Source: Watersipora subatra
Lineage: Eukaryota > Bryozoa > Gymnolaemata > Cheilostomatida > Watersiporidae
Assembly: GCF_963576615.1 (NCBI RefSeq)
Contig: NC_088714.1
Coordinates: forward strand, 42,254,072-42,318,071
Direction: 5' to 3'
Length of the DNA stretch: 64,000 nucleotides
In this document: piece after piece, positions 7,884-42,414 of the stretch
Layout: each line of letters starts with the position of its first letter
Position numbering within the stretch: position 1 is the first letter of the stretch
Notes under the pieces: model-generated
What the model was told of the DNA's origin: nothing
What the model saw: the letters and a program-made list of their open reading frames with translations, nothing else
The model's database searches: none
Made by a program: the position numbers and the translations under genes

Positions 7884-10800
7884 TTCCATTCCTTCCCCTC
7901 TCTCAGCCAAACGCTAGCATTTTTTTGAATTACAGGAGTTGCCAAGTTCACCAACAAGGTCAAGGTGAATGTCGAATACATAGTCATATACTCACCGCCA
8001 TCATAGACTATGGGCCTTCCTTGCCGATACAGGACCAAGTTGGGACAACCCTTTAAACTATACTTTTTCTCATAGGCTTTGTCCTTGAGTCCAGCTGTCA
8101 CAACACCTCCTGCAGGAGTCCAAAAATGCACAAATATATTTCATGTTCCATTATAAACAATAGAGTACAGATATCTCAGACATTCCTGCACAGATATCTC
8201 AGACATTCCTGTACAGATATCTCAGACGTTCCTGCACAGATATCTCAGACATTCCTGTACAGAAATCGCAGACATTCCTGTACAGATATCTCAGACATTC
8301 CTGCACAGATATCTCAGACATTCCTGTACAGATATCTCAGACATTCCTGGACAGATATCTCAGACATTCCTGTACAGATATCTCAGATAACTTGATGAAT
8401 GGAGTATATTCCTGTAGACACTATTGCTGCATTAAGTTTACCGGTGACCTAGCTGACAATATCACTCAACCAATAGTTTATGAAAGTTAACCTATTCTAT
8501 TCTACACCCTGCCTCAGCTAGTACCTGCTAGTACCTGCTATGTCAAACTCATCTTCAGCATATTTCCCAATCTCTGCAAGGACTTTAATCATGGAAAGCT
8601 TGTCAATAATCTTCTCACATCTCTCATCACTGTTTCCATCTAAAATACATTTTCAGATGACAGGAGGCATCAAGATCAACACACAAGATGTGTTATTATA
8701 AAACTACTCGAAGCCAGTTCCCCATAGCAGTCAGATCACGTCTTCATATGGCTATTAAACGATAAGGATACAGACATTAGCACCCCAAAATAGTCAAATC
8801 GCCTCTTCCTAAGGCTATCAAACGCAAAAGCTTACTGGCTTTGTATTATGGCTGTTTGTTCTCTGTTACTTCCAGTTATATTAATCACTGTAATAGTTGA
8901 TGCCTTTGTTAATGATAAAGCCCTGTGTCTACACTCTACACCATTGTTCTCAACATGCGATGTAACTTTAATAGAGGTATGGCATAGCTGTCAAAAAGAA
9001 GAATGTTGCTAGGCTGCAAAATTTTTCAAAACTGATCCTTTGAAATGCATATACATTCAACAAAATTGAAACACTAAAAGAGAATAGACTTAGATTTAAA
9101 GAACTCACCGACTGTGATCTAATTAATCAGATTTAATAACCAATTTGCTTAAAAAACTTGCTTAAAATATTGATTAAAATTATTAAGACATTATTAAAAT
9201 ATGCTTATTAAACTTATGTCGATGATTATGATGCAAGTGGCTATAATAATCACCAGAAATTGTCAACTTCCAGATGATTCAAGTGGTAAAGAATGCAACT
9301 TCATAGACAAGAAGACCAATTCTTAAGAGACAAAAGGCAATTTGTGATGTTCCTTGTTAATTTAGACATGTATATTTCAAGTATTGTCAGAGTTTTAATA
9401 GTACTCTGTCTAGATTACAGCCAAGACACTGGCCTAAGGCTACCTGATGTCCTAACATTAAATAAGAAAATGCAAAAACACAAAAATGCAGTTAAAGTTT
9501 TTTATTTCACAGCCCGGTGGCAGACTTGACTGCTAGAAGCAGGTTGTCAATTGCATAGAATTGACTTTTCGCCAGTAACAAGATAACGCCTAGAGAAGCT
9601 TGTACACTTATTGTACTCAGTCAGGACAGTCTGCTAAGCTGAAACTCTACACTAAGCAAAGCGAATTAGCAGACTGCAACTAGTTCTGACACCAATGCAC
9701 AGGTTTGGTCTGCGAGGCAGATTCATACAAGCCTCATAAGCGGGTAATACTTTTGGCTCTGACAATGGAGCACGATGAAGTAATTACAATATACAGAGCT
9801 CTTCTGGTACAGCTAGGATCAATATATAAAATGAACTAGTTTAAATGGTATCAGCGTCTACTTTCCTCGCTATCTAGCCAACAACACAAAAAGAACACAA
9901 ATCGAGCAGTAACGTAAGATTCATAGGCATTTACAATACTCATATATTTAAAAGGACAGTACTGTTGAATGGTTAGTAAAATGTATCGTAATGGTGAACA
10001 GTGATCGGTGCTTTTTGCTTTCACTAATCAAGTAGAGCACTTCAAGAGAGGATGCAAAAGATGTGCTTGCGTGCCTCCTCTATGCCAGCCAACCATATAA
10101 GCATAACCATGTCTATCAGCTTTACTATGATGTGAATCAGAACTCATGTGATTCAACTTGATGATGCTGATTAGACTCTTTGTTTAACTTGAACCATAAC
10201 TGTCACGTACAACTTTTATTGTAATTTCTATGTAAATCAGACACGCTGATTCCGATTTTGCACTCAAAATAAAGATTAGTCCACTAACTTTCAGAGTATT
10301 GAAGGCTTTATTACAGTGTTTTAATATCGGTCTCGAAAACAACACAATCGGCATAACAAGCTCCGCCCATAAATATGTGACGAAACCTAGCTTTTTCAGG
10401 AATAGAAGTTAGGGATGTTTAATCCGATTTAGAATAATAGAGATGGGTGTCTTAAAACCCGTTATTAACTAAATCCAGCCTGTAAAATAATTTCAGTCTT
10501 TTATGAAAAGTATATAAACTATTTAAAATTGCTCGTAGCTTGTTACATGATGTTTAAATGGGCTGAATGCCAGGAAAAATGAGCTCAAAAAAGCGCGATT
10601 TTATCACAAGCTTGCTTTGTTATCACGCTTTTTTGAGCTCATTTTTAAATATGCAATGTTAAATAGTTTATTTACCTTTCAGAAAAGACTGAGATTATTT
10701 TTAAAACTGAATTTAGATAACAATGGATTTTAAAACACCCATCTCTATTATTCTAGATCGGTCTAAACATCCCTAAATTCCGTTTCTAAAAACCTAGGTT

Positions 10801-14522: not shown

Positions 14523-17500
14523 ATGGTCGTTCAAGTATTGGAACACTTATATTTAGGTTCTTTTGATGACGTGATGAAGCACATCGAATTATCTGAAAAT
14601 CATGTACATGTACAGGCCGTTTTGACTGTCGATTTAAAACCATTAAACTGTGAGGTTTCCGCGCAGTTCTGTTACAAACATATTCCAATACTCGACATGG
14701 AAAACGAAAACCTCTTAGTCCACTTAGATGACGCAGTCAGTTTCATGGATAACCACCGACTCGACAACAAAGATGTTATTGTTCATTGGTAGGTGATAGG
14801 TGATTTATGTCAAGACAAACAGTTTGTGTACTTTCTTTATCAAACATTTTGAATGCTTCAGATATTTTACAACGATCTCTTGTTGAACGCTGAAGTTAGC
14901 GTCGATAATCACGAGAACACAACTCTGACTCAAACTGGCTGCGCTCCCAGCAGAGGCAGGCAGTTCATGCAACACACGCAACATCTTGTCTCAGTGCCCC
15001 TTTCACTGTTTTAAAGCCTAAATTACTAACAAATTGAGAAAAAGTTCTTTCAATTTGCTAGTTCTTGCAAATTGGAGATATTATAGAAGCCGCAAATGAG
15101 CATCACAAAGACATACATCATATGCTAATCACTAATTCACTAAACTCAAAAATTACTTGATTGTATGAAGCCCTAAAATAATAAATAATTACAATGCTCA
15201 AGACTTTACCAGAAGACAATAAAAAGCATTCAAGTTAAGGTAGGATGTACTGATTGTCACTAACATTGAATCTCTGCATTACTCAGTCTCTCAATTGGTT
15301 GGTTGTCAATCCAGTTCTATAGCCTTTGGTCACCAGAACCTCGCATGTTTTACGTGTTGGCTTATTGTTCAGATCAATCAATCAATCATGTCGGTTACAC
15401 CTTTGAAGGATTTTGCCTAGTTGAATTCATATACTGTACTTGGAATTCAGAATTTCAAATTCTTCAACTGGCTTGGGTTCACAAAAATCATTTTTCAAAC
15501 AATCTTAGGAATGTAACAAAATATGATGAGGCATTTTGTAGTGTTTTCTTTAGGAACCTGCTCTACTATGTTTGCTTCTCTTATCAAATTGTGTGCTGTT
15601 CTCATAATACTAGGACAAACTGTCAGCTTGATCTTATTTGAAACAGTTATTTTCATTCCATCAAACTTTTAGGTGATTATATCTTTGCTAATCTGTCACG
15701 CTTGTGACATTTTGGATGGGATAAAAATATGTGCAAGATTATGTTTGCTACTAGAATAAATTGAAACTGTAACTTTTAGTCTGGATTGTACACATAAATA
15801 TACTGTTAGACTACAAAACAACAGAAAATAACCACATCAAGCTATGATGTAATAATAAGCAATATATTCGTTATATATGGTTATGACGGACATAACCATA
15901 TATAACAAATAAGTCCAATATCTACATTTGGAAGTAAGAAAGTGGGTTAAGATTCCATCAAATTATTGTTAAATTCTAAATGTAACTATAATAGTCCCAC
16001 GACCAAACACGAGCAAAGCGAGTGTTTGGGAGCTTTATGATAAATGCATAGGCGCACACAACTCCCAAAAAATTATCCGTCAACGGCCGTAACCAAACTC
16101 TTGTACCGAAATCTCATCAAAAAATTTAACCATTTTTGTGTAGAGTCGTTTAAGTATAATAATGATACAAAACACATATAAACCTATTTAAATATGTTGC
16201 CAAGTCTTTGAAAAGTTGAGACAATATCCTAAAACTTACCCATCTGATCGGGTAACACATAACTAGACAGATTAATTTTGCCTAAAATCGCCATTAAAAC
16301 CTGACAACCCTTTTTTAATCAAAATTAAGACCGGCAAACAAAACGCCAATGAAGCTGTGCAACAGATAGTAGAACTATTAAGCCGTGCACATTTCACGAG
16401 AAAAACGTGCACATTTCACCAGTCTATGGCATTGTCCAATTGCCGAAGGTTTCTGTAATTAACGTAGAAGTACTGAAAGGTAATCGTTTCTTTTTTGAAA
16501 TCGTTTCGATTTAATTATAAGAATAATCATTCGAATTTACAAGATCGAAGTATATAGTGACCGATGGTGTGCAATATGTTACTGTTATTATTTTTCTAAA
16601 GATTTTGTTGATGATATTACGGCTGTGCTTAATATCGAGGTACTGTCACGCCGTTTTTAATATCTGCAAAATTAAGTAATAGGCCTACATTTTCTTATAG
16701 ATATACAGCTATTTCTATGACAACCAACTAAAATCTGTTTAGATTTTTAAATTTAGCAGCTGGCCATTTTATTTTTAATGTTGTATTTCTCCTACTGCAG
16801 GGGAAAGATATAAACATATAATCTTTTCCTTTCATTATTGCTGTTTGTTGTACATACTAACACCCAGTACGTTACAGCTACCATTGCAGTTCTCCTATTG
16901 CACTGCAGTGCCATTTGACTGCTAATATTGCATTTCTCAGCCAGCAGTACCCTTACTTTTTTCCAATATCACTTTGATCGTGGGCTGTATGACAGGCGAA
17001 TTTCTAGTTAGTGTAGAAAAAATGTTTAATACTATCAACCAGTGTCAGTAAAGTTCAGTAATGTCAGTAAACCAACATCAGTAAATTTATAGCATGTAAC
17101 ATTTTTCAAATAACTTATGCGTCTCTTCAACTTCATCAATCCGTTTGGATAAGCGGAAGAAGTTTCCCTAGAGGTACCGTTGTTCCAAGTTAGATCCAGC
17201 ATCTATTACCAAGTTGTGTACTGTGCTAGTTTCTGATTGTTCTAGTATCTGGATGGGATGTATGAATGGCGACAAACGAATAGATGTTCCGGTCAGTTGA
17301 TTTGGTTTATTCACTTTATTCGTTTGTGCCGTGAATACAGCAAACCATGCATATAAACATAAAAATAATGTGCAAAATATTAAAAAATAGATATAGGGTG
17401 ATTAGTAAAAACCAGGCAAATGCATTAACTGAGTTGTACATATGGTATTAGCACTTACAATAGTTAGGAGATATCCTCCAAACACTAGTAAGACTTGTCT

Positions 17501-20500
17501 CAGTTCAAGTAGTTTAGATATATTAAAGACTAGCTGTTGTGAATCATATGGCCAATAGAGATAGTATTCTGGCATATAACAATCAAGTCCATTTTAGTAC
17601 TTGTGTGTGCAAAAAGACATTAAAAAAGTGCAAAATTACAGACAGTTAAAGTAGAAAAAAATGAACTTACTATGAATTCGAATGTTCCTTATGATGAGAA
17701 GTTGGGAAACCAGCACAATTTCAAATAATCCTTTGAGGTGGCCTCGCAAAGCAACTAGTGACCAGTGCTGGATGTTACAGTGTTTATATAAGCTAAAGTC
17801 ATCGATAACCTCAATGCTTGTGATGAAAAGCCAAGCTTATTAGTTTGATGATACGCAATGACACTGCTTGTAGTAAATCTGATACAGTGATGTCTACTTA
17901 AATTTTTCTGATATCTCGGAGAAGTATGACATTTTACGTTTATTCTCTAGTATCACTTCTTAATAGCTATAATGCCTAATTTCAGCACTGCTGGCCAATC
18001 ACGGAGTGCAGCTGTTGTGATTGCATACTTGATGTGGAAACTCCAGATGGATTACAAAGATAGCTTCGAGTATTTAAAGAAACTAAAACCTGATATTAGG
18101 TTAGTTGTACTGTGAACTGTTCTACTGTTAACTGCTTTACTGTGAACTGTTCTACTGTTAACTGCTTTACTGTGAACTGTTCTACTGTTAACTGCTTTAC
18201 TGTGAACTGTTCTACTGTTAACTGCTTTACTGTGAACTGTTCTACTGTTAACTGCTTTACTGTGAACTGTTCTACTGTTAACTGCTTTACTGTGAACTGT
18301 TCTACTGTTAACTGCTTTACTGTGAACTGTTCTACTGTTAACTGGTCTACTGTGAGTTGCTATACTGAGAACTGATATACTCTGAACTGCTGTACTGTGC
18401 GCTGCTATACTCTGAACTGCTCTACTGCGAACTGGTATACTGTGAACTGGTCTACTGTGAGTTGCTATACTGAGAACTGATATACTCTGAACTGCTGTAC
18501 TGTGTGCTGCTATACTGTGAACTGGTGTACTGTGACCTGGTCTACTGTGAGCTGCTCTACTGTGAACTGCTCTACTGTGAACTGCTCTACTGTGAACTCT
18601 TCTACTGTGAACTGATATACTGTCAACTGCTATACTGTGAACTGATATACTGTGAACTGGTATACTGAGAACTGATATACTGTGAGCTGCTATACAGTAA
18701 GCTGCTATACTGTTAACTGCTAAACTGTGAGCTGATATACTGTGAACTGCTATACTGTGAACTGCTATACTGTGAATTGTTACACAATGAATTTCTATGC
18801 AATAAGCTACTATGCATGTAAATTCTATACTGAAATATGTGTTGACAAAAAGACAGTCAGATTTATCCACGTAACTTTCAATATTTGCCTCAGTGTTAAA
18901 TTCGTCTATAAGGTTGTTCCAGCCAGGCAAGTAGTTTATTTATGGCATTATAGAAAGTACATTTGTTAATCTGTAGACCAAATAGAGGATTTGAGGAGCA
19001 ACTGACAATGTATGAACACATGGGTTGGAGGCTGGACAAAACAAACAAAGCCTACAGACAGTTTGAGTTGGAGAGAATCGGAGCAATGGTCACTTCTGGC
19101 CGAGGTCGGTACAGCACATCTGTTTTTTTATTAACCTTGTCATTGTCATCAAACTTTGAGATGCTCGACTCTATTTTACACTGTTTCCTGTTTGCCTGCT
19201 GTTAGAGATCCTTCCCTATTCGCTGCAATGATACTCGAAATCTAGTCTGCACTTTTGCAATGCTGTGGGACATTCTGAAGGAGTAAAAGTAGAATATCTC
19301 TGACTGAGCAATAGACTGCCTTTACCGTTAAAACCATTTCTATTTCTGTCATCTTCGAAGATAATTTAGAATTCAATTTGGAGTGGAGTGTTTGCTTACC
19401 GTATATAGAAAATGGTTTATATTTGTTTTTCACGCATACATGTGTGCTTACATAATGCATGCTAAATCAGTATTTGCTCCTGAGAGATAATAAAGTGACC
19501 ATAACAGGTATTGAGTAGTTTATGCATTTGTAAGATTAACTTGTGAGAGGAAGTAAGGACCTTGAGCTAAGTTAGCTACTCGTCTGTGTAGAAGGAAGTT
19601 CTGCAGATCCTTTACTGATGTTAAAGTCAATAGAGTAACTTGTTGAAGCTCTAGTATCGCTCAAAGTATTTGTAATTGGCTAAAATCATTGGAAGTATTC
19701 TTAGTATAATAACATCTCAACTTTGAAAATTTTGGCGCTTGTCGTTAGTAAACCATAGTTGCTGCCTATTGATTGGCTGAGCTTTTTGTCATCCTGTAGA
19801 AATCACTGAGCTGGGTGAGTTTTTGAATGGTGTGGAAGATGTTAGGAGTCCCTCAAATTCTTTGACATACAAGTGTAAGAAGTGCAGGTAAGGTTTCCTG
19901 TATGTAAGGGTCTGTGTAGAAAAGGTTGCCTGTAGGTAAGGATCACTGTAGGTAAGACTCACTGTAGATAAGGATCACTGTAGGTAAGGATCACTGTAGG
20001 TAAGGATCACTGTAGGTAAAGATTACTGTAGGTAAGAATCACTGTAGGTAAGGATCACTGTAGGTAAGGATCACTGTAGGTAAGGATCTCTGTAGGTAAG
20101 GATCACTGTAGGTAACGATTACTGTAGGTAAGGATCACTGTAGGTAAGAATCATTGTAGATAAGAATCACTGTAGGTATGGATCACTATAGGTAAGAATC
20201 ACTCTAGGTAAGGATTTCTGTAGGTAAGGATCATTGTAAGTAAGGATCACTGTAGGTAAGGATCACTGTAGGTAAGGATCACTGTAGGTAAGGATCACTG
20301 TAGGTAAGGATCACTGTAGGTAAGGATCACTGTAGGTAAGGATCACTGTAGGTAAGGATCACTGTAGGTAAGAATCATTGTAGATAAGAATCACTGTAGG
20401 TATGGATCACTATAGGTAAGGATCACTGTAGGTAAGGATCTCTGTAGGTAAGGATCACTGCAGGTAAGGATCACTGTAGGTAAGGATCACTGTAGGTAAG

Positions 20501-23500
20501 GATCACTGTAGGTAAGGATCACTGTAGGTAAGGATCACTGTAGGTAAGGATCACTGTAGGTAAGAATCATTGTAGATAAGAATCACTGTAGGTATGGATC
20601 ACTATAGGTAAGGATCACTGTAGGTAAGGATCTCTGTAGGTAAGGATCACTGTAGGTAAGGATCACTATAGGTAAGGATCACTGTAGGTAAGGATCACTG
20701 TAGGTAAGGATCACTATAGGTAAGGCTCACTGTAGGTAAGGATCACTGTAGGTAAGGATCACTGTAGGTAAGGATCTCTGTAAATTAGGATTCCTGTAAA
20801 TAAGAATTTGTATAGATAAAGGTTTTCGTAGGTAAAGATTCCTGTGGGTAATGGTTCCTATAGGTAAGGTTTCCTACAACGGGAAGGATTCGGGTAACAT
20901 TCTAGTCACGATAAAAATACAGGTAAACTATTTTGTTTACATTCTGTTGCCTTGCATAGTAGTCATTTTCTCTAATGATATTCATTAGTCTATCGAAACC
21001 ATTCATCGGCATGCATCTATCACTATTGCTCTCCTGAAGATCATTTCATAAATCTGCTTATACAGTAGTTAGTTGTATACAGGGGTAACTATTTCATAAT
21101 GACTCCATGCTATAACTTTTATATATAATACTTTGTTGGCAATAATTTCATTTCAAAAATAGACATGTCTTTCAATTTAGGCCATACAACAATAATACAG
21201 AAACAAATGGCAACGGTTATCCACTAAAATCTAATAGATAGTTTGACAAATATTGTTTAAAATTCTTTTCTCTGCTAAGAGAACGGATATTAGGTGGAAG
21301 ATTGGTAAAGTAGCCGGCGATGATATTTTCAAAATAATTGTTAGTGATTGTATGCAATTTGTTCATATCATGTAAGTTGAAATGAGTTGAGTTATAAACC
21401 TTAGTGAAGTGTGGCAAGGCGGTCGATGGGTGGGACCGAAAGTCTACACACACCGGGGATGGAGTGTTGGTCTATCAAGACAAAAGTCACGAGTTCGAAT
21501 CTCGCGAAAAGCAATCTTTTTTCCTAATTTTTGAGTGTGGCTTTGGACAGACGATGAACAGTCATGGCTATTATTATAGTAAAGATGATAATAAAGGTTA
21601 CTACAATTATGGTGGCCGTAAGCAGTAACTATAATATAAATGTAATGTATTCTCAATTTGACCATTACAGACAGACCTTGTTCTCTGAAGCAAATGTCAT
21701 ATATCATATGGCTGGAATTGGTAATGAAGCCTTCAGCAAACCATGGCAGAAGATGACAGCTAATACTGGCTCTGATTGTAAAAGTGGACTGTTTATTGAA
21801 CCAATGAAATGGATGGCTGGTTTGGGAGAGATTACTGGCAAGGTAGAAGAGTGTACACTGTCTTGTTTGTACGTGTATATCTCATCAAGTATTTTGTCTT
21901 TATGTGTATATCTCATCAAGTATTTTGTCTCTATGTGTATGTCTCATCAAGTATTTTGTCTCTATGTGTATATCTCATCAAGTATTTTGTCTCTATGTGT
22001 ATATTTCATGAAGTATTTTGTCTCTACGTGTATATCTCATCAAGTATCTTGCGGATCATAAATTAGTATGTTCAAATAGTTGTTGGACTGTTTTAGATTG
22101 GCTGTATGAAATGCTCTGCTAAGGTTGGCTCATGGAGCTGGTCTGGTAAGTGCTGCCATTGTGTCTTATTGTTCTGCCTTCCTTAAACCATAACTGCCAC
22201 TTACAACTTTTATCGTTTTTACTAGGTAAACCAGACACACTGATTCCGATTTTTTACTCAAAAATTAAAGATTGGTCCACTAACTTTCAAAGTCATGAAG
22301 ACTTTTTTAAAGCGTTTCAATATCCATTTTAAAAACAACACGATTGGCACAACAAGCTCTTCCCATAAATATGTGACGTAGCCTAGCTTTATAGGAACGG
22401 AAGTTAGGGATGTTTAGTACGATTTAGATTTATAGAGATGGATGTCTTAAAAACCATTATTATCTAAATTCAGCCTTCAAAATAATCTCAGTCTTTTATG
22501 AAAGGTAGATATACTATTTAAAATTGCTCGTAGCTTGTTACAGGATGTTTAATAGGCTGAACTCGCTGAACTAGTAATACGTTTAATAGGCTGAACTCGC
22601 TGAACTAGTAATACGTTTAATAGGCTCAACTCGCTGAACTAGTAATACGTTTAATAGGCTGAACTCGCTGAACTAGTAATACGTTTAATAGGCTGAACTC
22701 GTTGAACTAGTAATACGTTTAATAGGCTGAACTCGCTGAACTAGTAATACGTTTAATAGGCTGAACTCGCTGAACTAATAATACGTTTAATAGGCTCAAC
22801 TCACTGAACTAGTAATACGTTTAATAGGCTGAACTCGCTGAACTAGTAATACGTTTAATAGGCTGAACTCGCTGAACTAGTAATACGTTTAATAGGCTCA
22901 ACTCGCTGAACTAGTAATACGTTTAATAGGCTCAACTCGCTGAACTAGTAATACGTTTAATAGGCTGAACTCGCTGAACTAGTAATACGTTTAATAGGCT
23001 CAACTCGCTGAACTAGTAATATGTTTAATAGGCTGAACTCGCTGAACTAGTAATACGTTTAATAGGCTGAACTAATAATCGTGCTTTTTTGAGCTCATTT
23101 TTTAATATGCAATATTAAATAGCTTATTTAACTTTCAGAAAAGACTGAGATTATCTTGAAGTCTGATTTTAGATAATAATGGGTTTTAAGACACCCATCT
23201 TTATCATTCTAAATCGGAATAAGCATCTCCAATTTCTATTCCTGAAAAACTAGCATACGTCACATATTTATGGGCGGAGCTTGTGCCGATCGTGTGGTTT
23301 TCGAGACGGATATTAAAACGCTGTAAAAAAGCCTTCATTACTCTGAAAGTTAGTGGACCAATCTTTATTTGGAGTACAAATCGGAATCAGCGTGTCTGAT
23401 TTACCTAGAAAATACGATGAAAGTTGTACATGACAGTTATGGTTTAAGATTGTGATTCGGTCTCATATATGTTACCTTGGTGGCAAACTTTCAAACTGCG

Positions 23501-25743
23501 AATCTCAAATCTATATTCCTTAAAGTTTGCTGTCTGTCATCATCCGTTTGAACATCTGTTTGCTCGGCTATCGCTATCAGAATCTTGGAATTAAAATCTC
23601 ACAACCTGCTGGATTTGAACTCACGATTATTGCAACCGCAGTTAAGCAATCCAATTGTCTATCCACCATTCCACGAAGGCTCATACAATTGTAAGCCCTT
23701 ACTATATACTGTATACGGTCTTTGTCCTGATTTATCACGCTAAATGACATAATAATAATCGAAACTCTATCAACTTTATGAAACATGATACGATGCTTTT
23801 TCATCTTTTTGTGAACTTTTATTTTCGGTTTTTCATAAGGTTCAATTACTAAATCGGTAAAGGCCAATACTTTTCAGTTGGCCGGATAATTGTATTATCT
23901 TGAATAGGAATAGCTCTACATTCTCTCTCCGTTCGTTTTCTCTCTGTTCGGTCAGACAGTCCTATATCTCATTTTACATTTATACCAGTATTAAGAAATA
24001 CCAGTATCGTCGTATTCAAAGTTTTTATAGTATCTTCTGCTGGAACAGTAACATTTTTTATATACACACACACTTCTATGCGGCTGATTACTATTATTAA
24101 TTCAACTTATTCAGGATTTTTATTTCGCTTTCTCAGTTCGTATTAATTGTATCATTACCAAATCATCTTTTATTGTAATCATAGCAAAACAGACTTAATT
24201 TAGCTATTACTTGCTAATTATTTCACATTTATATTTAAATGTGACTTACAACTTTTATAATTGTTTTATTTTATTTCTTAGTATATGTGATCTGCACAAA
24301 ACATTTTCCTCATGATATGAAGTTTGAAAGTTACAGTTGTTTGACAAAATTTGAAAACCTTTACAGTTGTTTTATTTTATTTTTTTAATTTATTTAAACT
24401 GCACCAAACACTTTTCTCAGGATATAAAGTTTGCAAGTTAGAATGGTAACTGCTGTTATATGTTAAATAAAAATAAGTTTTCTGTGCCAAGACTTTTATT
24501 ACTCGGGCAATGCCGGGCATTCACCTAGTACTCCGCTACATGTTAACATTTAATTGTTGTTGTTCTCGGTACAAGAGAGTTATTGATGTTATTAATAAGC
24601 GAGTAAAACAATATAAACGTACCCAAACCAATGGCAGCGGCAATGGAACTGTTCAGTGGATAATAATATCAGTGATTGGCAACCACCATCTTATTTTACT
24701 TATGATCTAGGAGTTGTACCCTCGTTTCATAGTTGGATGTTCAGTCTAGGATTTATTCATTGCTATAGTAGCGGATATTTCAGTGTATAAGTCGAAAATT
24801 GGATACGAAATTTCAAGCTTAGAAAGTCTATTCTTGACTTATACGGTGTGACATTTTTTATGAAACAAATGCTAGTAAATTCAAATGTACGAAGACCATC
24901 GCAAATCAAAATAATATGATATGACATATAGGAATTTATTACAAAATAGTAAAATACTAGTAATCCTACTCAACATGAGATCAAATACAAAGTCCCATTC
25001 TTCATCATTTAAATTGTCATAGCACAGGTCATCTTTGTGAGCAGTGTTTTTGTTTTGAATTTAGCGCTATTTTTTGTAGTATCCGCCTACGACCCCACAC
25101 TTCGATAATCCATTTGACATATTCACTATCGTTCATCCATCTTTTTTCTTCTATATGAATCAGCATTTCTGGCAAAAATCTGTCATGTTATTCCTGTTTT
25201 TTCAAAAATGTATTATCATAGGTGACAGTTTCATTCTATTGGCGAGGTGATCCAATGCATTGATGAAGTGTTGTCTTTCGTGCCATGTGATCTTCACCAG
25301 AAACGTTTTCTCTCACACTCTTCATGGTTGTAATACTCATGGCACCAAAAACATCGGCAATTTCGCTGTTGATGCAGTTGATTGCCATTTCTTTAGCTAC
25401 ACATCGCCTGCTTCTGAAAGACCGAAATATTCTGATCAAGTGATTGGAGGAGTCATTTAGATTTGCCAGTGGTCGACTTATACGGCAGGCGCGTGTCAAA
25501 ACCAAACTTACAGACTTCAACTTACACGCCATGTCAACTTGTACACCGGAATTTACTCTATGTATATATTTGTTGCATTATAACTATTTAACTAATATTG
25601 CTGCTCAGGACTCACCCATCCCTGTACAAAGATGTTTGTGTGTGATAGGGGAGCGATGCTGCTGTGGCACATGGGTGACACCCGCCTTTCACATCGATAA
25701 CAAGAAGGTAGACAAGAGCGTCCCGGTGAGACTACCCTCCTAG
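14523..25743 (+). CDS. DUSP12: DUSP12-like dual-specificity protein phosphatase
   Basis: Seven exons: 14523-14788, 17986-18099, 18977-19104, 19800-19887, 21671-21842, 22097-22145 and 25649-25743. They total 912 bp, or 303 residues plus stop, and phases agree at all six introns (2, 2, 1, 2, 0, 1). Exon 1 opens MVVQVLEHLYLGSFDD and carries the presumed general-acid loop (PILDMENENLL). The catalytic signature is split by intron 1: VH + C gives HCTAGQSRS, an intact HCx5R loop. Exon 3 (GFEEQLTMYEHMGW) is the conserved phosphatase C-terminal helix. The DUSP12-specific C-terminal zinc region follows: YKCKKCR (exon 4-5), FIEPMKWM (exon 5), CMKCSAKVGSWSW (exon 6) and CCCGTWVTPAFHI (exon 7). Family members dephosphorylate Tyr and Ser/Thr substrates and have been linked to ribosome biogenesis; that role is from the family, not this sequence. 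The protein is slightly shorter than the human one (340). An AATAAA lies at 26013, about 270 bp after the stop. Introns 2, 4 and 5 begin with minisatellites. Confidence 0.9.
14789..15865 (+). other. DUSP12 intron 1, first part
   Basis: No array or element recognised. An open frame at 15303-15641 has no motif. Confidence 0.5.
15871..15907. repeat. Perfect 16-bp-arm hairpin
   Basis: GTTATATATGGTTATG and its exact inverse CATAACCATATATAAC are separated by five bases (ACGGA). It lies in DUSP12 intron 1. Possibly a transposon terminus or footprint. Confidence 0.8.
15990..17985 (+). other. DUSP12 intron 1, second part
   Basis: Starts with a GC-richer motif (CCACGACCAAACACGAGCAA then AGCGAGTGTTTGGG, a short imperfect inverted repeat) that may be the edge of a dispersed element; no other end was found. 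The remainder up to the exon 2 acceptor shows nothing identifiable. Confidence 0.35.
18104..18790. repeat. 15/30-bp minisatellite hugging DUSP12 exon 2
   Basis: The first 240 bp are near-perfect 30-bp units (TACTGTGAACTGTTCTACTG, then TTAACTGCTT); the rest is the 15-bp monomer TACTGTGAACTGCTA with many variants. The array starts within about five bases of the intron 2 donor (GTTAGT at 18100). It produces open frames on both strands (for example 292 codons on minus) that are low complexity. Confidence 0.95.
19905..20870 (+). repeat. 16-bp minisatellite of splice-donor-like units
   Basis: About 60 tandem copies of GTAGGTAAGGATCACT in DUSP12 intron 4. The true donor (GCAG|GTAAGG) is at 19888 and the array grades into it through degenerate copies (CTGTATGTAAGGGTC). 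Each unit contains TAGGTAAG, a close match to the 5' splice-site consensus. A roughly 200-bp higher-order block (with ATCATTGTAGATAAGAATCA) recurs at about 20150, 20370 and 20565. Confidence 0.95.
21455..21505 (+). repeat. tRNA-like SINE fragment candidate
   Basis: GGTCTATCAAGAC followed by GAGTTCGAATCTCGCG resembles the anticodon-to-T-arm half of a tRNA-derived SINE with a B-box. No intact A-box and no second copy seen. Confidence 0.3.
21868..22050. repeat. 31-bp minisatellite after DUSP12 exon 5
   Basis: About six copies of a unit containing CTCATCAAGTATTTTGTCTC, starting about 25 bp after the donor at 21843 and ending about 45 bp before exon 6. It fills nearly the whole of this 254-bp intron. 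Confidence 0.92.
22183..23447. mobile_element. Foldback element FB-1, copy with internal array
   Basis: Same inverted arms as the copy at 10193-10992 (ACCATAACTGCCACTTACAA left, inverse right near 23420-23442), with TTAA at both ends. Instead of the central hairpin it carries about 15 copies of a 34-bp unit. Located in DUSP12 intron 6, starting about 40 bp after exon 6. Non-coding. Confidence 0.82.
22552..23068. repeat. 34-bp minisatellite inside foldback element
   Basis: Unit contains AATAGGCTGAACTCGCTGAA and CTAGTAATACGTTT; about 15 copies with only a handful of substitutions (GCTGAA/GCTCAA). Confidence 0.95.
23605..23675 (-). repeat. tRNA-like SINE head candidate
   Basis: On the minus strand GTGGATAGACAATTGG (A-box-like) is followed 30 bases later by GTGAGTTCAAATCC (B-box-like). 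Suggests a tRNA-derived SINE or tRNA pseudogene; it adjoins the Helitron-like copy. Confidence 0.35.
23700..24528 (+). mobile_element. Helitron-like non-autonomous element
   Basis: Ends with a GC hairpin (CTCGGGCAATGCCGGG) followed by CTAG and a T, as expected of Helitron 3' termini. The body matches the reverse complement of 325-1010 and the copies at 30.8-31.2 and 56.1-56.4 kb. The 5' end is not defined. It lies in DUSP12 intron 6. Confidence 0.6.
24530..25648 (+). other. DUSP12 intron 6, distal part
   Basis: Contains a 98-codon minus-strand frame (25236-25532) of normal composition but no recognised domain; possibly a transposon remnant. No array. Confidence 0.4.
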
Positions 25744-26290: not shown

Positions 26291-29200
26291 TTATAGTCTA
26301 GTCATCATGCTCTCGTGTATGACGAGCCCCTTCCTTAGCTTCTGTACATCTGTCTCCCCTGCAACAGACACAAGAGGTAAGTCTATATCAGCTGCATAAA
26401 CATTGTAAGCGGGGAGTTATCTGTCTCTGATTAGAGTGCACGCACTGAATTAACCTGAAGTACGGATAGAGTCCTTGAAGTCCTTCAAGTACAAGGAATG
26501 ATAGAGTAAGTGTTCTTTGCTGGGGTTTTCTTTCTCATTTACATTTAAACCAAATTTACTGCGAAAGTAGTGAATTTAAGCATTAATGAAGAAAAGACAG
26601 GTAATTCTACCTATATCCTTTTGTCATGCCATGTGCATTCCAAGAATAGTCATCGTAGTATCTTTGCAATGGAGTTTGTGGTAAGCTATTGCAAAGATAT
26701 TACACAAATATGCACAGATTCAGTTAGTCTTACATATGTTGGTTCTTTTTAGGCTATCTTATACTCTAGTCTCTAACAATTCTACATTGCAGTAACAAGT
26801 TAAGAATTTAGTACAAGCTAGGCTAGTTCGGTCAGTTTTAGGGCAGCATAATTGCTTGATGATCCATTGTTTCTCGCTGTGAAAAGTCTCACTTAAAAAT
26901 GGATTCACTCAATAACACAGTTTTAAAGAATGCTTATATCAGTGAAGAAGCCAAGGGCCAATTTTATCAGCATATTTTTGCAAAGGATGGATATACAATT
27001 ATACATGTAAATGGAAATTTTAGAAATTAATTTACCTACATAGAATGAGACAAAGTTAAACCGACAATATTTAACAAAAAAATGTCAAAATCTACATACG
27101 GTGCTCGGTATGTAAGCTAAATAATGTGTGAGTTTGCATATAATAAATACCGTTAACCAGTTAAGTTGAGGTATTTATACTGGTGCGAACTGTTGAGTCC
27201 ACATGTTGCGCTCTACATAAGATCGTCCTAGTTCATAGCAGAACATAAAAGAGTACAAACATCTGAGAGTAGACAGTAGTTGTTCTCTGACCTACACACC
27301 TGTCTACTTTGACATACATGCACATGTGTTCCCTGACTAACTCACTGTAGCCTAACATTAGCCTGCCATTAAATGGCTCTAATTTCTGAACCTCTCCACT
27401 GTAACCACATACACTAAAGTAGTAAATTTGAAAGGGGCTGTAAAAGCTAAGGCCCCTCATAGCTCATCAGGTTACGCCTACCTGACAGCTGCATGGCAAG
27501 CTTGAGTTCCTTCTTCAGAATGCTAAGGATGTCTGTGACGCCTTGTTCACCCTAAACCATATTTAAACATGTTGCTCAGAAATCACTCTATCTTTGGCAA
27601 ATAAGCAATTTAGTCGTGTTTTATATCAATTGCGGTAATAGCAAACCGGTAACTGATTATGCATTTACATAGACATGGAGTAGTCATGCTTGAGAAGATA
27701 ACTCCGATAGACAACTCTTCAAATAGAGCAAGACATCACAGTGTAGTGATTTTTTACACAGTCACTACGGATAGCAGGAAGGTAATATAGTTGGCTCAAC
27801 TTACCCCAACAGCCAGACCATAGAGAGCAGGTCTACCGATGAAAACAGCCCTAGCTCCTAGTGACAAAGCTTTTAGCACATCGGTACCTTTCCTCACCCC
27901 ACCATCTAAGTAAACTTCTACTCGGCCTCGCACCTGCGCTACCACTTCCGGCAAAGCTATTATCTGAAAAGAAATTCATGGTCATCTTGCTTTTAGGCAA
28001 CAAGCTGCTGCAACGGAAAATGTGAATAATGTTCTGGTGGCCAGTGATTGGTCAGTTTAGTAGGTTGTGAAGTAGTCAGTGGTCAGTTGTGATAAGTGGA
28101 CTAACATTCTGTTTAGTGCCAGTTCAGAGTCAGTGCATTAGTTTATTTTCATGGTAAGCATACTGATCAGTCTAGTGTGCAGTGGTCAGTCTAGTGGACA
28201 GTGTTTAGTTTAGTGGGCAGTGGTCAGTCTAGTGGTCAGTTTAGTGGACAGTGGTCAGTCTAGTAGGTAGTGGTCAGTCTAGTAGACAGGGGTCAGTCTA
28301 GTAGGCAGCGGTTAATTTAATAGATTGTCTCTTGTGATTATATTGAGCTTATGACAATTGGGGTTCTCTCCTACAGATAATGTATGACAACCAATTTGTC
28401 TCTCTCAAACATATAGTTCATAAATAACATCAAATATGTCTCCAATAAACATCCAGTACATAATGGTACAGTTTAAATACCATTTTTTTAACTATTTGTT
28501 AAAATGATTGTACGCCAAAATCCAAGTTTGGAAAACAGAAAATCTTTAAAGTCTGAACGATTCTTTTGTCCTTCAAGATTGGCTGCAGCTCTATCTTCTA
28601 GTTAAAAAGTCTATGCTAGTACTCTTTTTGTGAATTTTGGACAAAGAATTTTTAGTTTTAGCAGAAGAAATTACATAGATGTGAGTACAGTCGAGTAGTG
28701 TCTAGCTAGGAAAACTGCTTGATAACATTTGCTCGCTAAAACATATTCAAACACGCTTCCGCTAAGGTCATATTCTGGCTGCAAACATCTTTTTGTAGTA
28801 ATTCAGTACAGTAAAAGGCACACTTTGTGATACGTTAGGAGTGTCAGATGTTGTTTCTGAGAAGATCGACTGTGGATCTTTTACCATACCTTTAACGTAG
28901 TGATAAAAAGACAATTTTACCGTAGAAAAAACTCCATCAAGTTGCCTTGCTCCATGATTTGATACTATGATTGCATCCACTCCTGCCTCGATTGCCCTTT
29001 CTGCGTCTTCACCTACGATACACGATGCCAAAGGCTTAGTGATATTACATGGCAGCAAACTTGACTATTTCTAACAATTTATTTTTTCCATTTGATTATT
29101 TCTCTACATTCCATTTACACTCACTTCTTCGGTTGCAAAGCTTATTATTTACCGGTCATCTCTGTTCTTGACTTGCAAAATGTCATTAAGAAGAGATTTG

Positions 29201-32200
29201 AAATTTGAATTAAGGCAAAAAGACACAAAGAGGAAGCAATCCCATTGGTTGTTGGCTGTATGGAGCAAAGAGGAAGCAATCCCATTGGTTGTTGGCTGTA
29301 TGGAGCAAAGAGGAAGCAATCCCATTGGTTGTTGGCTGTATGGAGCAAAGAGGAAGCAATCCCATTGGTTGTTGGCTGTATGGAGCAAAGAGGAAGCAAT
29401 CCCATTGGTTGTTGGCTGTATAGAGACGTTGAAGAGAATATTTTTAGGAGAAAAGTGAAGAAGGTCTCAATATAACAGATTCTGTAGAGAGGTGCAAAGG
29501 ACAACTATGATGGAACTGGAGAGTGTCAATGTAGTGAATGCAGACTAAGAAAGGAAAACTACCAGTAATAGTTGGTCGTAACTTGCTGAGAGCGACCTCA
29601 TTAAGACTGGTATCATACTAGCATATGCAGCAGGTGTGACAGAGAAATGAGTAAAAACATCAAGAGATGCAAAGCATGAAATACAAAGCCAGGATGAAAA
29701 TAAACATTGTGCAAGAAAATACAAGGAGTTAAAGATAAACTTACACAAAACCTTAGTAAATTTTATCAAAAAGTATGGATGTATTTTTATCATCTACGAT
29801 GGTTTTTAATGTTTGTGGTGATCTGACGGCCAGAATGTTTCAAGATTAAAATTGACAAAACCTATTCGTGGTTAAAGCGTTTAGAACAAGCGAAAGCGCG
29901 AGTATGACGTCTCATAGCTGCAAAGAGACCGACAGAATAGAGACGCGCAAAGCTGCAACTTAAATGCAATAGCCGGTATCAGCTATAGCAATGATAGCAA
30001 CTAGTGATGTTTTTTTGGAGCGCATTTTTCTTCTGAGCATTTTAACTGCAATCAAGCTGTCAATTTTAATATTAAAACATCTTCGCAATCAGAACACCTC
30101 AAACGTCCAAAACAAATCGCAAATGATAAAAAAAACCAATACTTTTTAATAGAATCTACTAAAGTTTTGTGTAAGTTGATCTTTAAACGAGACGAGAGTA
30201 GGTTGAAGAAATGCTGAAACAAAGAACATGGAGGACCCAATGTTAGTTAGGGAGGACCCTAGCAATACCCTAGCATGTTAGTTAGGGTAGAGAGAAAATA
30301 AAACATCAGGATAAAAGGCTATGACATAGTTAATGATTTGTAGCAAAACCTTCAAGCAACGACTTAGAAAATTGAAAGACCTTAAAAAAGTGAGAGACAC
30401 TTTATAGAGAGCTGAATGGTTCATTACAATTGAAAATGGTTTGACAGGAGCCTGCTCAGTACTGCCAGACAGGCAAATGACAGACAGGCAGGTGACAGAC
30501 AGGCAGGTGATAGACAGGATGAGCTAGTACCAGGAACAGATTTTATCAAAGGAACAAACATGGGTGCATTGAGTACACTTGAGAACATCATGAATAAAAT
30601 GGATGAGATCAAAGAAAACGAGAAATGAATTTCGTCTAAAATGTGAAGAAAGTTATGAAGACAGTTCTGAATAGGAGGTATAGTCAAAACTATAAACTCA
30701 TGGGCTATTTCAGTAGTCCAACCATAGAGTTATCTTCCCTGGACATCCTTGCTTGATGTAAGCAAGCTAAAAGTTTGAAAGTTAGAGACGCAAATGTTGT
30801 TATATGTTAAATAAAAATAAATTATACTTAATTAGACTAAATTATAATTATATAAAAATAAAATAGACTTCTTTATTACTTTATTTATTAAATAACTTTT
30901 TATTGTAATTATAGCTAAACAGATTATATTTAGCCATTACTTGCTGATTATTTCACATTTACATTTAAATACATTTGCAGTTTCATTTTTCTTCCTAATA
31001 TATTTCAACAAAACACTTCTTTCATGATATGAAATTTAAAAGTTGTAGTTGTTTGAAAAAGCTTGAAAACCTTTACAGTTAGTTTTTTTTTCCTCTTAAT
31101 TTATTTGAACTGCTTAAAAATATTTTCTCATGATATGAAGTTTAAAAGTTAGAATGGTAAATGTTATATAAAAATAAATTTTCTGTCCAAAGACTTTTTT
31201 ATTACTCAGGCAACGCCGGGTTGTACAGCTCATAGTTGATGGCAATCGATTAGCTTCTCATCACACTAATGTAATACAACCCAGTATGACTATCTATGTT
31301 ATCTATGAGTAACTGATTGCATTAACTCACTTACTTAACACTATCTATTCAGTGCCTTTGCAAGTCATGTAGGTATGGAATTGCTTTAAATAATAAGCAT
31401 ATATTAGAGTAATAAACTTTAATCATCATTTCTTTAATATGAGCATTAATTACTATCTTAACTGTGGAAATTCATCATCATTGTTTAACTATTTTCATGG
31501 CTGATGTTATTGACCTGGTCAATCACTACGACTGACTAGCACAAAAAAGGGGCGCGGCCTAAACGCTCCTTGTTGGCTTCGGAAACGCTCGTGTAGTTAT
31601 CACTCTAGGGGGAGATAACTCTATGGGTCCCACACACATCTAGAATGCTCTGGAATGTTCTGGAATGTTCTGGAATGTTCTGGAATGTTTGGATAGACTG
31701 CAAGACAAACAGTGCCAATGCATAAGGAGCTCATGTGCTGTATACCATGTACTCTGACTCGTGTACCACAAAAAGATGTTGGTTAAGAAAACGGATAGAA
31801 GACGAAAATCATTTCTAGTGAAAACATGTTACCTCGTTCAATAGATTGTAACTCTAAACCCTAAGAGGGCTGCACTGTCAAATATTGCCAAATCAAGCCT
31901 TAGGCCGTAATCTTTGAGAAAAAGAGTTGCACCATATGAGATTTGAACCCACAACGTTTGACTCCAACACCCAGCACGCTACCACCAGCACTAATCCTTC
32001 ATCTTCTATTGTGTCATAATTATTGTGCATATAATTATTTTGAGCACACCTGACGATTTCTCATGGTGCTCAAGATTGCATGGGTACCAGTATGAATAAT
32101 ATTAGCAATAAATATGAAGAGAATACACATTCACCAAATATATAAATTATTGTTGCTGAGGTTTAGTTGTTAATCCAAGGTACAACACGAAAGGTTCAAC

Positions 32201-35200
32201 AGGTAACAATTGACAAAATTTTACTTTGACTTTTTGATTTGACAAAAGATTCACCTGTGAGAATGCCTTTAGCTACAACCGGCAGCGCCGTGATGCTTTT
32301 GAGCCAGGCCACATCCTTCCAGGTAACCGATGGATCAAAGAAAGTGTCTGAGAAGAAGTTCAGTCCGGATCCTCCTGAGTTGTTGGCCATTCCTGACTCC
32401 ATAGATGGAATGCCGTCAAAATTGGCCATGCTTGAGAACAGAGCCATTTTGTTATGAGTCTTATAGACCGCACTATAGATCACACTATATACTACACTAT
32501 AGACCGCACTATAAATCACACTATATACTACACTATAGACCGCACTATAAATCACACTATAGACTGCGCTATAGACTGCACTATAGACCGCACTATAGAC
32601 CGCACTATACACTGCACTATAGACTGCACTATAGACTGCACTATAGACCGCACTATAGAAGGCACTATAGACTGCACTATAGACTGCACTATAGACCGCA
32701 CTATAGAAGGCACTATAGACTGCACTATAGACTGCACTATAGACTGCACTATAGACCGCACTATAGACCGCACTATAGACTGCACTATAAACCGCACTAT
32801 AGACTGCACTATACATTGCACTATTCCCAAAAAAGAATAAATGTCATTATAGGCAGTGTGTAAATTTACTACTTCTGCACTCCTTAAGAAATTATATTAT
32901 ATCATGTCATATGATGCTACAACATATTATAATTTCTATTGTATTAAATTTACTATATTATCACATTATTATATCATATCACATTATATCATGTTATACT
33001 ATATTATATCATACTGTACTTATTGCAACTATGATACTGAAAAGCTATTTCTCAAGTAGTTTAGTGAAGTATTAAGTTTTTTGTCCATATCAACATTCAG
33101 TCTAAGCATTCAAATGAGTATCATTGTTAGCAACAACAAAAAATACGTTAATTAAAAATTGCAAGTTTTCTTTGTTCATAGCATAACCATGATGTTATGA
33201 ATGGTTGAAAAACATGCTTCTAGATTTAAATATGCAGATTTGTGATGAGACTTCCAGTTGTCAGCGATACTACTAAGATGAGCTCGTACTCAACTGTAAA
33301 TAGCCTCTGGCGATGCTAGTATTGACTTACCGGAGGTGTTGTGGCACTTTAAACTTGATTCTGGTGTCGGAATAGCGAGTACCAAATGTGGGTGTGTCTA
33401 CAGTCAATACTAAAGCCTTGAATCCATAGACTTCAGCCCTTTTTACCATTTTTTGTGTGATTGCTCGATCTCTGTAGACATGCATAGTTTTAGATGCTTC
33501 AAATAATAGCCCTTTTTGATAGCCCTCTTTTAATTTATTCGTGCAGTTGCTGATCCAGTTTTACACAATTAAGCTGCCAAATTATGCACAAAAGTCACAT
33601 AAACGAAACAAAAGAGGCATGAGGCAAATCGCCAAAGTTAAATATTAATTCTTTGCAATTTTTGGTAAATTTGTCTCTTATTTATGAGTTTAGTTAATAT
33701 GCAATAGGTGTGCAGCGGGTGTGCAGATGGTGTGCAGCGGGTGTGCAGCAAGTGTGCAGCGGGTGTGCAGTGGGTGTGCTTGCGAGTGTGCAGCGGGTGA
33801 GCAGCAGGTGTGCAGCGGGTGTGCAGCAAGTGTGCAGCAAGTGTGCAGCGGGTGTGCAGCGGGTGTGCAGCGGTTGTGCGGCAAGTATGCAGCGAGTGTG
33901 CAGCGGGTGTGCAGCGGGTGTGCAGCGGGTGTGCAGCGGGTGTGCTTGCAGGTGTGCAGCAAGTGTGCAGCAAGTGTGCAGCAGGTATGCAGCAGGTGTA
34001 CAGCAGGTGATGAGTGTTAAGTATCGATATGCTTGGTGGTCTGATACTCCAAAATTCACAGAGATGGCGAATAACAAAGTTTGTCATATTAGCTTTGCTG
34101 CAGATGTAAGGCTAGTCAACATCAAGTTCTAGACAATAACTATTAGCAGTTTCATTATGACATAAATACACCCAAATGTCGATTTTGTGTGATTTCTGCC
34201 TATACAATTTGGTTTCTGCTAAAGTATCTTTATTTACTTAACCTAGTAAACTACTTTAAGGTTCTTCACTGTTGCCTATATACCATATGTAACATGCCAA
34301 TATAGCATATGTAACATGCCTATATACCATATGTAACATGCCTATATACCATATGTAACATGCCTATATACCATATGTAACATACCTATATACCATATGT
34401 AACATGCCTATATACCATATGTAACATGCCTATATACCATATGTAACATACCTATATACCATATGTAACGTGCCTATATACCATATGTAACATGCCTCTG
34501 AGGTTAACAGCTGTAACATCAAGTATAAGATACGTGCATGCTTTAACATATGTCAACTGTTAATAGGTATATCTAACCTCGTGATGTACAGTTGGTACCA
34601 TCTAAGAGAGTTAGGAACATGTTCAGACAACTCTCTCGCGCTGGTTGTTGCTATGGTGCTTAAGACAAAACAGGTATTCATTGCTTCAGCAGCTGCAATA
34701 CAGAGATGGTAGGAAGAAACGATTCTTTTACATGCTTTAGTCATTACAAGGTTTCCCTTAGATATAATAATTAATTAGACACGCATTATTAGGACAATAA
34801 CATACTATTGTTCTAATAACTATTAGAACAATAATATATTGATAATTTTGAGTTCTATTAATTATTAGATGACGTAATTAATGACATAATTATGACACGC
34901 AAATAGGAATAAGTGAGCTGACGTTTAGTAGGGTATGGTGGCAAAGTGATATAAGGTTAAGTGAATAATAGAATAGGGAGGATAGCGAAAAGAAATATCG
35001 GATAGAGATGCAGGTGAATAATCAGGTAGATAGGCAGATGAATAATCAGGTAGATAGGCAGGTGAATAATCAGGTAGATAGGCAGGTGAATAATTAGGTA
35101 GATAGGCAGGTGAATAATCAGATAGATAGGCAGGGGAATAATTAGGTAGATAGGCAGATGAATAATTAGGTAGATAGGCAGGTGAATAATCAGGTAGATA

Positions 35201-42060: not shown

Positions 42061-42414
42061 GGCAAAGGCTCTCTCAATGTCATGGCAATTATGGTATGAT
42101 GAGGCAGGCTTGTGGTTTCTAGTAGAGCTGTTACATTACCTATATAGAGCACGCAGGGTTGGTTAGTATGCCTGTACTGCGTGCTCATAGCTGACCAATC
42201 AAAAAGCTTCTGCCACTAGAAACACCAATCTTTTTTGTCCGCATTAATCCATCTGTCGTATCAATTCTACCTATAATACATACAGAGATATGAATGAAGC
42301 TAACACTGGCCTGCTCGCGTGTCAGTATGTAATGTATCTGCTGGTCGATGACATAACTATACATTCCAGCATTCGGTGTAAGACGTTTGAGACGGAACAG
42401 TCTGAAAACTCAGC

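Follow-up and report, generated by a model that had tools for sequence, protein, structure and literature searches.

In the bryozoan Watersipora subatra, the DUSP12 gene carries a long array of 16-bp tandem repeats at the 5' end of its fourth intron, and the splice donor of exon 4 stands as the first unit of that array. The gene lies in a stretch of 64,000 nucleotides (assembly GCF_963576615.1, contig NC_088714.1, positions 42,254,072 to 42,318,071), referred to here as the window. The array is probably an exon-boundary minisatellite of the 'mirage' type, in which the first donor would be used, products of the decoy donors would decay, and the repeat itself would be mostly a passive passenger.

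The exon 4 boundary and the layout of the array

Splicing of seven DUSP12 exons at GT/AG borders generates a single open frame of 303 amino acids plus stop (Table 1). The catalytic part matches a solved DUSP12 structure (E 1.7e-24), and the C-terminal part is similar to yeast YVH1 (E 1.6e-17). The YVH1 alignment spans the exon 4/5 junction (KCKKCR/QTLF compared with RCKKCRTKLA) and is gap-free at the join; position 19887 was therefore taken as the true end of exon 4. GC content at DUSP12 third codon positions is 47%, and that of the window is approximately 36%. ARAGORN detected no tRNA genes in the window, and a codon-usage exon finder run on it gave little yield.

Table 1. Features of DUSP12 and of the repeat array in intron 4 (window coordinates; a slash marks the splice junction)
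Feature	Position	Strand	Remarks
DUSP12 exons	14523-14788, 17986-18099, 18977-19104, 19800-19887, 21671-21842, 22097-22145, 25649-25743	+	In-frame join
DUSP12 exon 4	19800..19887, 88 bp	+	Ends ...YKCKKC plus the AG of a split Arg codon; donor AAGTGCAG/GTAAGG
DUSP12 intron 4	19888..21670, 1783 bp	+	Acceptor CATTACAG/ACAG
Unit 1, authentic 5' splice site CAG/GTAAGG	19886..19901	+	AGGTAAGGTTTCCTGT; 12.39 bits, human donor matrix
5' edge, degenerate units 2 and 3	19902..19933	+	CC at unit positions 12-13 common to units 3 and 1
Homogeneous core, 53 units (4-56)	19934..20781	+	Built around AGGTAAGGATCACTGT
3' edge, degenerate units 57-62	20782..20877	+	Last unit AGGTAAGGTTTCCTAC, 14/16 identity to unit 1
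In-frame TAA on exon 4 read-through	19889..19891	+	Overlaps the donor itself; upstream of every decoy donor

Counted in 16-bp steps from the last AG of exon 4 (19886), 62 consecutive units run to 20877 without a single insertion or deletion, in agreement with the figure of about 60 tandem donors in a preliminary description of this DNA. Rows reported by Tandem Repeats Finder (TRF) cover the array at 19886-20782 and 20829-20876. Of the 62 units, 54 retain GT at the donor position, 49 have TAGG, 45 AGGTAAG and 43 TAGGTAAG, so that the consensus formerly ascribed to every unit is restricted to these 43. Allowing at most two mismatches, the core unit has 53 matches in the window (0.03 expected by chance), all of them within the array.

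Donor strength was scored with a human 5' splice-site frequency table (maximum 12.82 bits). A random 16-mer of window composition is as strong as the modal unit in 0.25% of cases, and a mono-shuffled unit in 0.81% (one strand in both cases), which bears out the strong donor match noted in the preliminary description. Within the core, a three-unit variant motif is seen at 20142, 20366 and 20558. Its recurrence at spacings of 14 and 12 units points to block duplication, of which it may be the mark.

An assembly artefact, or an array of the wrong copy number, is very improbable. Long arrays of 16-bp units are hard to assemble, which would favour such an error. However, the many distinct unit variants stand in a structured order, unlike a simple copied error, and other long arrays occur throughout the window. 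The length given here for the intron 4 array may still be wrong.

Relationship of the donor to the array

The authentic donor is in exact register with the units behind it and shares with them a variant confined to the edges of the array. Six of nine edge units, among them the first and last of the array, have C at unit position 12, compared with none of the 53 core units (P 1.4e-6, with unit position and edge limits picked after the units had been seen). Register and edge variant together indicate that donor and array share ancestry. In addition, the flank ahead of the first core unit (units 1-3) scores 37 against the array consensus, compared with a random mean of 10.2, a value equalled by none of 2000 random pieces. 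The last six units are closer to unit 1 than expected from simulated independent decay of core units (0 of 20000 simulations). The 14/16 identity of the last unit to unit 1 is also found in unit 60 and in one core unit. The core unit finds no match in the last 30 exonic bases ahead of the AG (P 0.31), and the array overlaps exon 4 by two bases only, the AG. From these sequences we conclude that donor and array have a common origin, and that the repeat ends where the exon begins.

The preliminary description took a grading from degenerate to near-perfect units as a sign that the donor had seeded the expansion. The grading exists at the donor end (units 2-3), and is not peculiar to it, since units 57-62 are degenerate as well. 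Degeneration at both ends is expected where homogenisation spares the edges, and the grading alone is therefore no pointer to the donor as seed. What stands of the earlier proposal is the common ancestry of donor and array, which would fit a donor that seeded the array as well as an older array that supplied the donor.

Alternatively, an ordinary donor-like minisatellite at the 5' end of intron 4 could have been homogenised up to the exon, or one of its units could have been adopted after the original donor was lost. Proximity by chance would be easier in a window as crowded with minisatellites as this one, with 68 TRF rows and 20.5% of bases in hand-merged arrays. Donor-like motifs are also frequent in other array units, on either strand, and in DUSP12 two further arrays lie next to a donor that is not part of them. 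The exact register and the shared edge variant argue against this alternative, as does the YVH1 alignment, which has no extra or missing residue at exon 4/5, so that the boundary seems unmoved. A chance neighbour is considered unlikely.

The position of arrays relative to splice sites was assessed with 39 hand-merged arrays lying in 14 introns (six of DUSP12, seven of an HAO-like gene and one of a G protein-coupled receptor (GPCR) gene), which were re-placed randomly within the introns 20000 times. With DUSP12 intron 4 included, an array lies within 10 bp of the donor in 2 of 14 introns (P 0.037) and within 31 bp in 3 (0.98 expected, P 0.049). The counts at 50, 100 and 150 bp are 3, 4 and 4 (P 0.15, 0.21 and 0.47). 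When DUSP12 intron 4 is removed, the counts for the remaining 13 donors at 10, 31, 50, 100 and 150 bp become 1, 2, 2, 3 and 3, with P values of 0.28, 0.22, 0.44, 0.48 and 0.74. A general mirage rule for the window is not shown by these figures, given the 2 of 13 donors at 31 bp. On the acceptor side, 1 of 14 introns has an array within 31 bp (P 0.67), and no limit was significant.

Seven boundaries (eight rows) were compared with the units of their arrays. The match is clear only for DUSP12 intron 4, and weak (P 0.0095) for HAO intron 3, where degenerate units reach toward the donor; the other five have none. Among the four donor-side arrays tested, the DUSP12 intron 4 donor is the only one that is clearly a unit. 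Two-copy duplications behind the other 13 donors show no excess (P 0.89).

A donor-like motif scoring at least 6.5 is present in 8 of 30 other minisatellite units, compared with 2.31 expected from non-array DNA of equal length (P 0.005). At stricter thresholds the counts are 4 compared with 1.06 (threshold 8, P 0.0225) and 1 compared with 0.33 (threshold 10, P 0.29). A matrix in reversed order gives no excess at 6.5 (1 of 31 units, 2.6 expected). Against shuffled units, and with the intron 4 array included, 9 of 31 units reach 6.5 (2.8 expected, P 0.0017). The 31 units, one consensus per array, were hand-picked from the 39 merged arrays, with eight AT-rich or short few-copy rows omitted; microsatellites were excluded beforehand and the thresholds were self-chosen. 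Five of the nine donor-like arrays lie in known introns, four antisense to the gene and one, that of DUSP12 intron 4, in the sense orientation. The enrichment is suggestive, being post hoc and from one window, and a strand split over five arrays is too few to conclude from.

A more general hypothesis would be that the minisatellites of this genome are seeded by splice donors. Donor-like motifs, whichever strand they lie on, would predispose DNA to tandem expansion, and arrays in the sense of the gene would mostly be purged. The surviving case at exon 4, with 44 decoys carrying AGGTAAG, would then show one donor told apart from dozens by a single exonic base (CAG as opposed to UAG) and by position. 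This extension is speculative and, on present figures, doubtful.

Several other repeats in the window lie near splice sites or contain similar motifs. A two-copy TAGGTGA repeat (14787-14805; period 7, 10 of 12 bases) follows the donor of DUSP12 intron 1 and is possibly due to chance. A 30-bp array with a 15-bp half-unit (18108-18781) starts 8 bp past the exon 2 donor, the flank of which does not match the unit. The 254-bp intron 5 is mostly occupied by a 31-bp array (21873-22051), which leaves gaps of 30 bp to the donor and 45 bp to the acceptor. In intron 6, a 34-bp array (22250-23460) has flanks that, by eye, look like mutual inverted copies, a foldback-like arrangement.

Outside DUSP12, the HAO-like (FMN_dh) gene (27468-37601, reverse strand) has eight recognised exons and minisatellites in several introns, of which that at 32462-32824 ends 31 bp ahead of an acceptor. 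The rhodopsin-family GPCR gene (42406-49735, forward strand) consists of two exons and a 6.3-kb intron with eight tandem arrays in the merged list. Within this intron, a 25-bp minisatellite (47935-48001) contains three strong donors on the reverse strand, GAG/GTAAGG once and AAG/GTAAGG twice, and no exon was recognised by eye ahead of them. Also on the reverse strand, in the regions 8165-8387 and 7996-8109, a 23-bp array precedes an exon of thioredoxin/PDI-like character, for which the PDB matches were weak (best E 0.012). The units of this array contain acceptor-like CTGTACAG/GA or CTGTGCAG/GA. The presumed acceptor, CCTGCAG/GA, lies approximately 75 bp beyond the array, and its flank has no significant match to the unit.

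Decoy donors and the choice among them

The donor of exon 4 scores 12.39 bits with the human matrix and the modal unit 10.11 bits; one of the 61 decoys ties with the authentic site and none exceeds it. The 14 authentic donors of the three genes in the window (DUSP12 6, HAO-like 7, GPCR 1) have a median of 6.81 bits (10.16 for the GPCR donor), and the modal unit outscores nine of them, including four of the six in DUSP12. The authentic donor and the modal unit differ at position -3, where C is replaced by T, a synonymous site (TGC/TGT, Cys). The use of only the first donor, one of the outcomes envisaged in the preliminary description, would fit best with these sequences, because the exon 4 donor is the joint-strongest unit.

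With T at -3 the decoys read UAGG, a motif type to which hnRNP A1 binds. This protein is described as favouring the intron-distal 5' splice site (PMC5585400). We hypothesize that UAGG in the decoys could, through hnRNP A1, favour the exon-adjacent donor.

Read-through from exon 4 had been expected to meet a stop within about 20 codons, and in fact does so immediately (Table 1). Since this stop lies ahead of every decoy, use of any downstream donor would truncate the protein, as had been supposed. Decoy use and retention of intron 4 would give an identical product, cut after KCKKCR and lacking the rest of the C-terminal domain. Three exons (5-7) remain downstream of the TAA, and decay of transcripts with such a stop is expected.

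On this basis the following course of events is proposed. A 16-bp stretch running from the last AG of exon 4 and including the donor, with an ancestral type close to AGGTAAGGTTTCCTGT, would have been duplicated in tandem, and slippage or unequal exchange could have expanded and homogenised the copies to the present 62 units. Homology ends at the exon edge, where coding constraint may block further spread. The first donor would normally be chosen because it is joint-strongest and adjoins the exon, and because most decoys have UAGGUAAG and not CAGGUAAG, a difference predicted to weaken pairing with U1 at -3 and to create UAGG, an hnRNP A1-type motif. Any decoy-spliced transcript would keep the stop at 19889 and presumably be lost by nonsense-mediated decay. 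If the first donor is normally used and decoy products decay, the array would be mostly a tolerated passenger.

Several observations weigh against parts of this account. With regard to origin, unit 1 has a mean likeness of 11.8/16 to the last six units, not above its 12.5/16 to the core, and it is therefore the shared variant that carries the argument for common descent. A probe for a second copy behind the intron 4 donor reached only P 0.0595, because it compares only 12 bases. Donor-first would be the simpler order of origin. With regard to tolerance, 47 of the 61 decoys equal or exceed the median authentic donor in strength. The AGGTAAG half of the core unit is less variable than the rest (10 of 371 compared with 30 of 477 cells, Fisher P 0.014, the cells being non-independent) and has 6 of the 27 inferred variation events (P 0.017, events counted by eye). 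There is no sign that the decoy donors have decayed, which appears to be the opposite of what selection against them would produce. Moreover, the stretch 19840-20140, which includes the first part of the array, folds worse than shuffled sequences (z +2.37; 99 of 100 shuffles fold equally well or better), and the decoys there are therefore not hidden by structure. Concealment of the decoys by RNA structure is unsupported as far as the folding of this stretch can tell.

These strong decoys, with their conserved donor core and no structure to hide them in 19840-20140, could instead indicate an active regulator, tuning DUSP12 output. U1 bound to decoys would delay or misdirect the splicing of exon 4. 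Some transcripts would keep the intron, end at the TAA, and decay or give a protein with the catalytic domain only, the fraction being set by copy number. The stop at the junction would make all decoy products equivalent, and truncation would strip most of the part that matches YVH1. The position of the exon 4 donor as joint-strongest site argues against regulation of this kind, as do amphioxus mirages, reported not to disturb splicing (PMC3087553, PMC3902484). An active role is judged improbable, and the passenger reading is preferred.

Three other roles for the repeated donors were considered and not adopted. A trans effect on U1 supply, or U1 depletion, is implausible on general grounds for a single locus. 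Protection by U1 from premature polyadenylation finds no support in intron 4, which has one AATAAA and no ATTAAA. Recursive (ratchet) splicing, at sites of AG/GTAAG behind a polypyrimidine tract, was set aside as unlikely. AG is present at the site in 57 of 62 units, and the pyrimidine tracts are poor (pyrimidine fraction 0.31-0.50, compared with 0.44-0.88, median 0.62, for 14 real acceptors), although 13 of the 57 unit AGs reach the pyrimidine fraction of the weakest real acceptor.

Comparison with known boundary repeats

Mirages are tandem duplications at amphioxus exon/intron boundaries, first reported by Canestro et al. in 2002 (as cited in PMC3087553). A later account describes them in globin genes and Adh3, with many units carrying AG/GT, with length instability, and with regular splicing seemingly undisturbed (PMC3087553). 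The globin gene BflGb6 has six or three units of 150-160 bp, BflGb9 a 157-bp duplicate, and Adh3 units of 10-72 bp (PMC3087553). A further report mentions a TnC mirage, as well as tandem repeats of a similar kind that cover splice sites in PGBD5 (PMC3902484).

As described there, amphioxus mirages resemble the DUSP12 array in units that include or abut the splice site, in the many AG/GT signals, and in a homogenised interior with divergent edges. Judged by its sequence, the DUSP12 array would qualify as a mirage, having a boundary-including unit, AG/GT signals and a concerted interior with excluded edges. It differs from the globin mirages in the number and length of its units, 62 of 16 bp each, and in their strong consensus donors. 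In the published cases the authentic site still works (PMC3087553, PMC3902484).

Tandem duplication of AGGT has been described as giving rise to introns; fission yeasts have multiple 24-bp duplicates spanned by introns, and a further example is potato RdRp (PMC4974935). Those introns and the DUSP12 array share tandem AG/GT units at an exon edge (PMC4974935). In contrast, the DUSP12 unit takes only the last AG of exon 4, and its AGs are mostly without a good pyrimidine tract. When the 30 exonic bases that precede this AG were compared with the core unit, there was no sign that intron 4 arose from the array.

In DOK7 intron 4, alternative 5' splice sites 11 nt apart compete (PMC5585400), and in DUSP12 donors would likewise compete behind one exon. 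The two differ in that as many as 53 decoys retain the donor GT in DUSP12, compared with one competitor, and that all of these lead to the same stop.

Among the matches listed in the literature, with most subscription journals outside the scope of the search, no such array was recognised outside amphioxus. The DUSP12 array appears to be a real, unusual case of the known boundary-minisatellite kind, and intron 4 most probably carries it as a tolerated passenger. Studies of how one donor is chosen from several similar ones usually involve few competing sites. In DUSP12, 61 tandem copies follow the authentic donor, and 47 of these score no lower than the median for authentic donors in the window, which would make discrimination between donors approachable in a natural gene. 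The array may also extend boundary minisatellites beyond amphioxus to a further animal, and its unit count far exceeds that of the globin examples.

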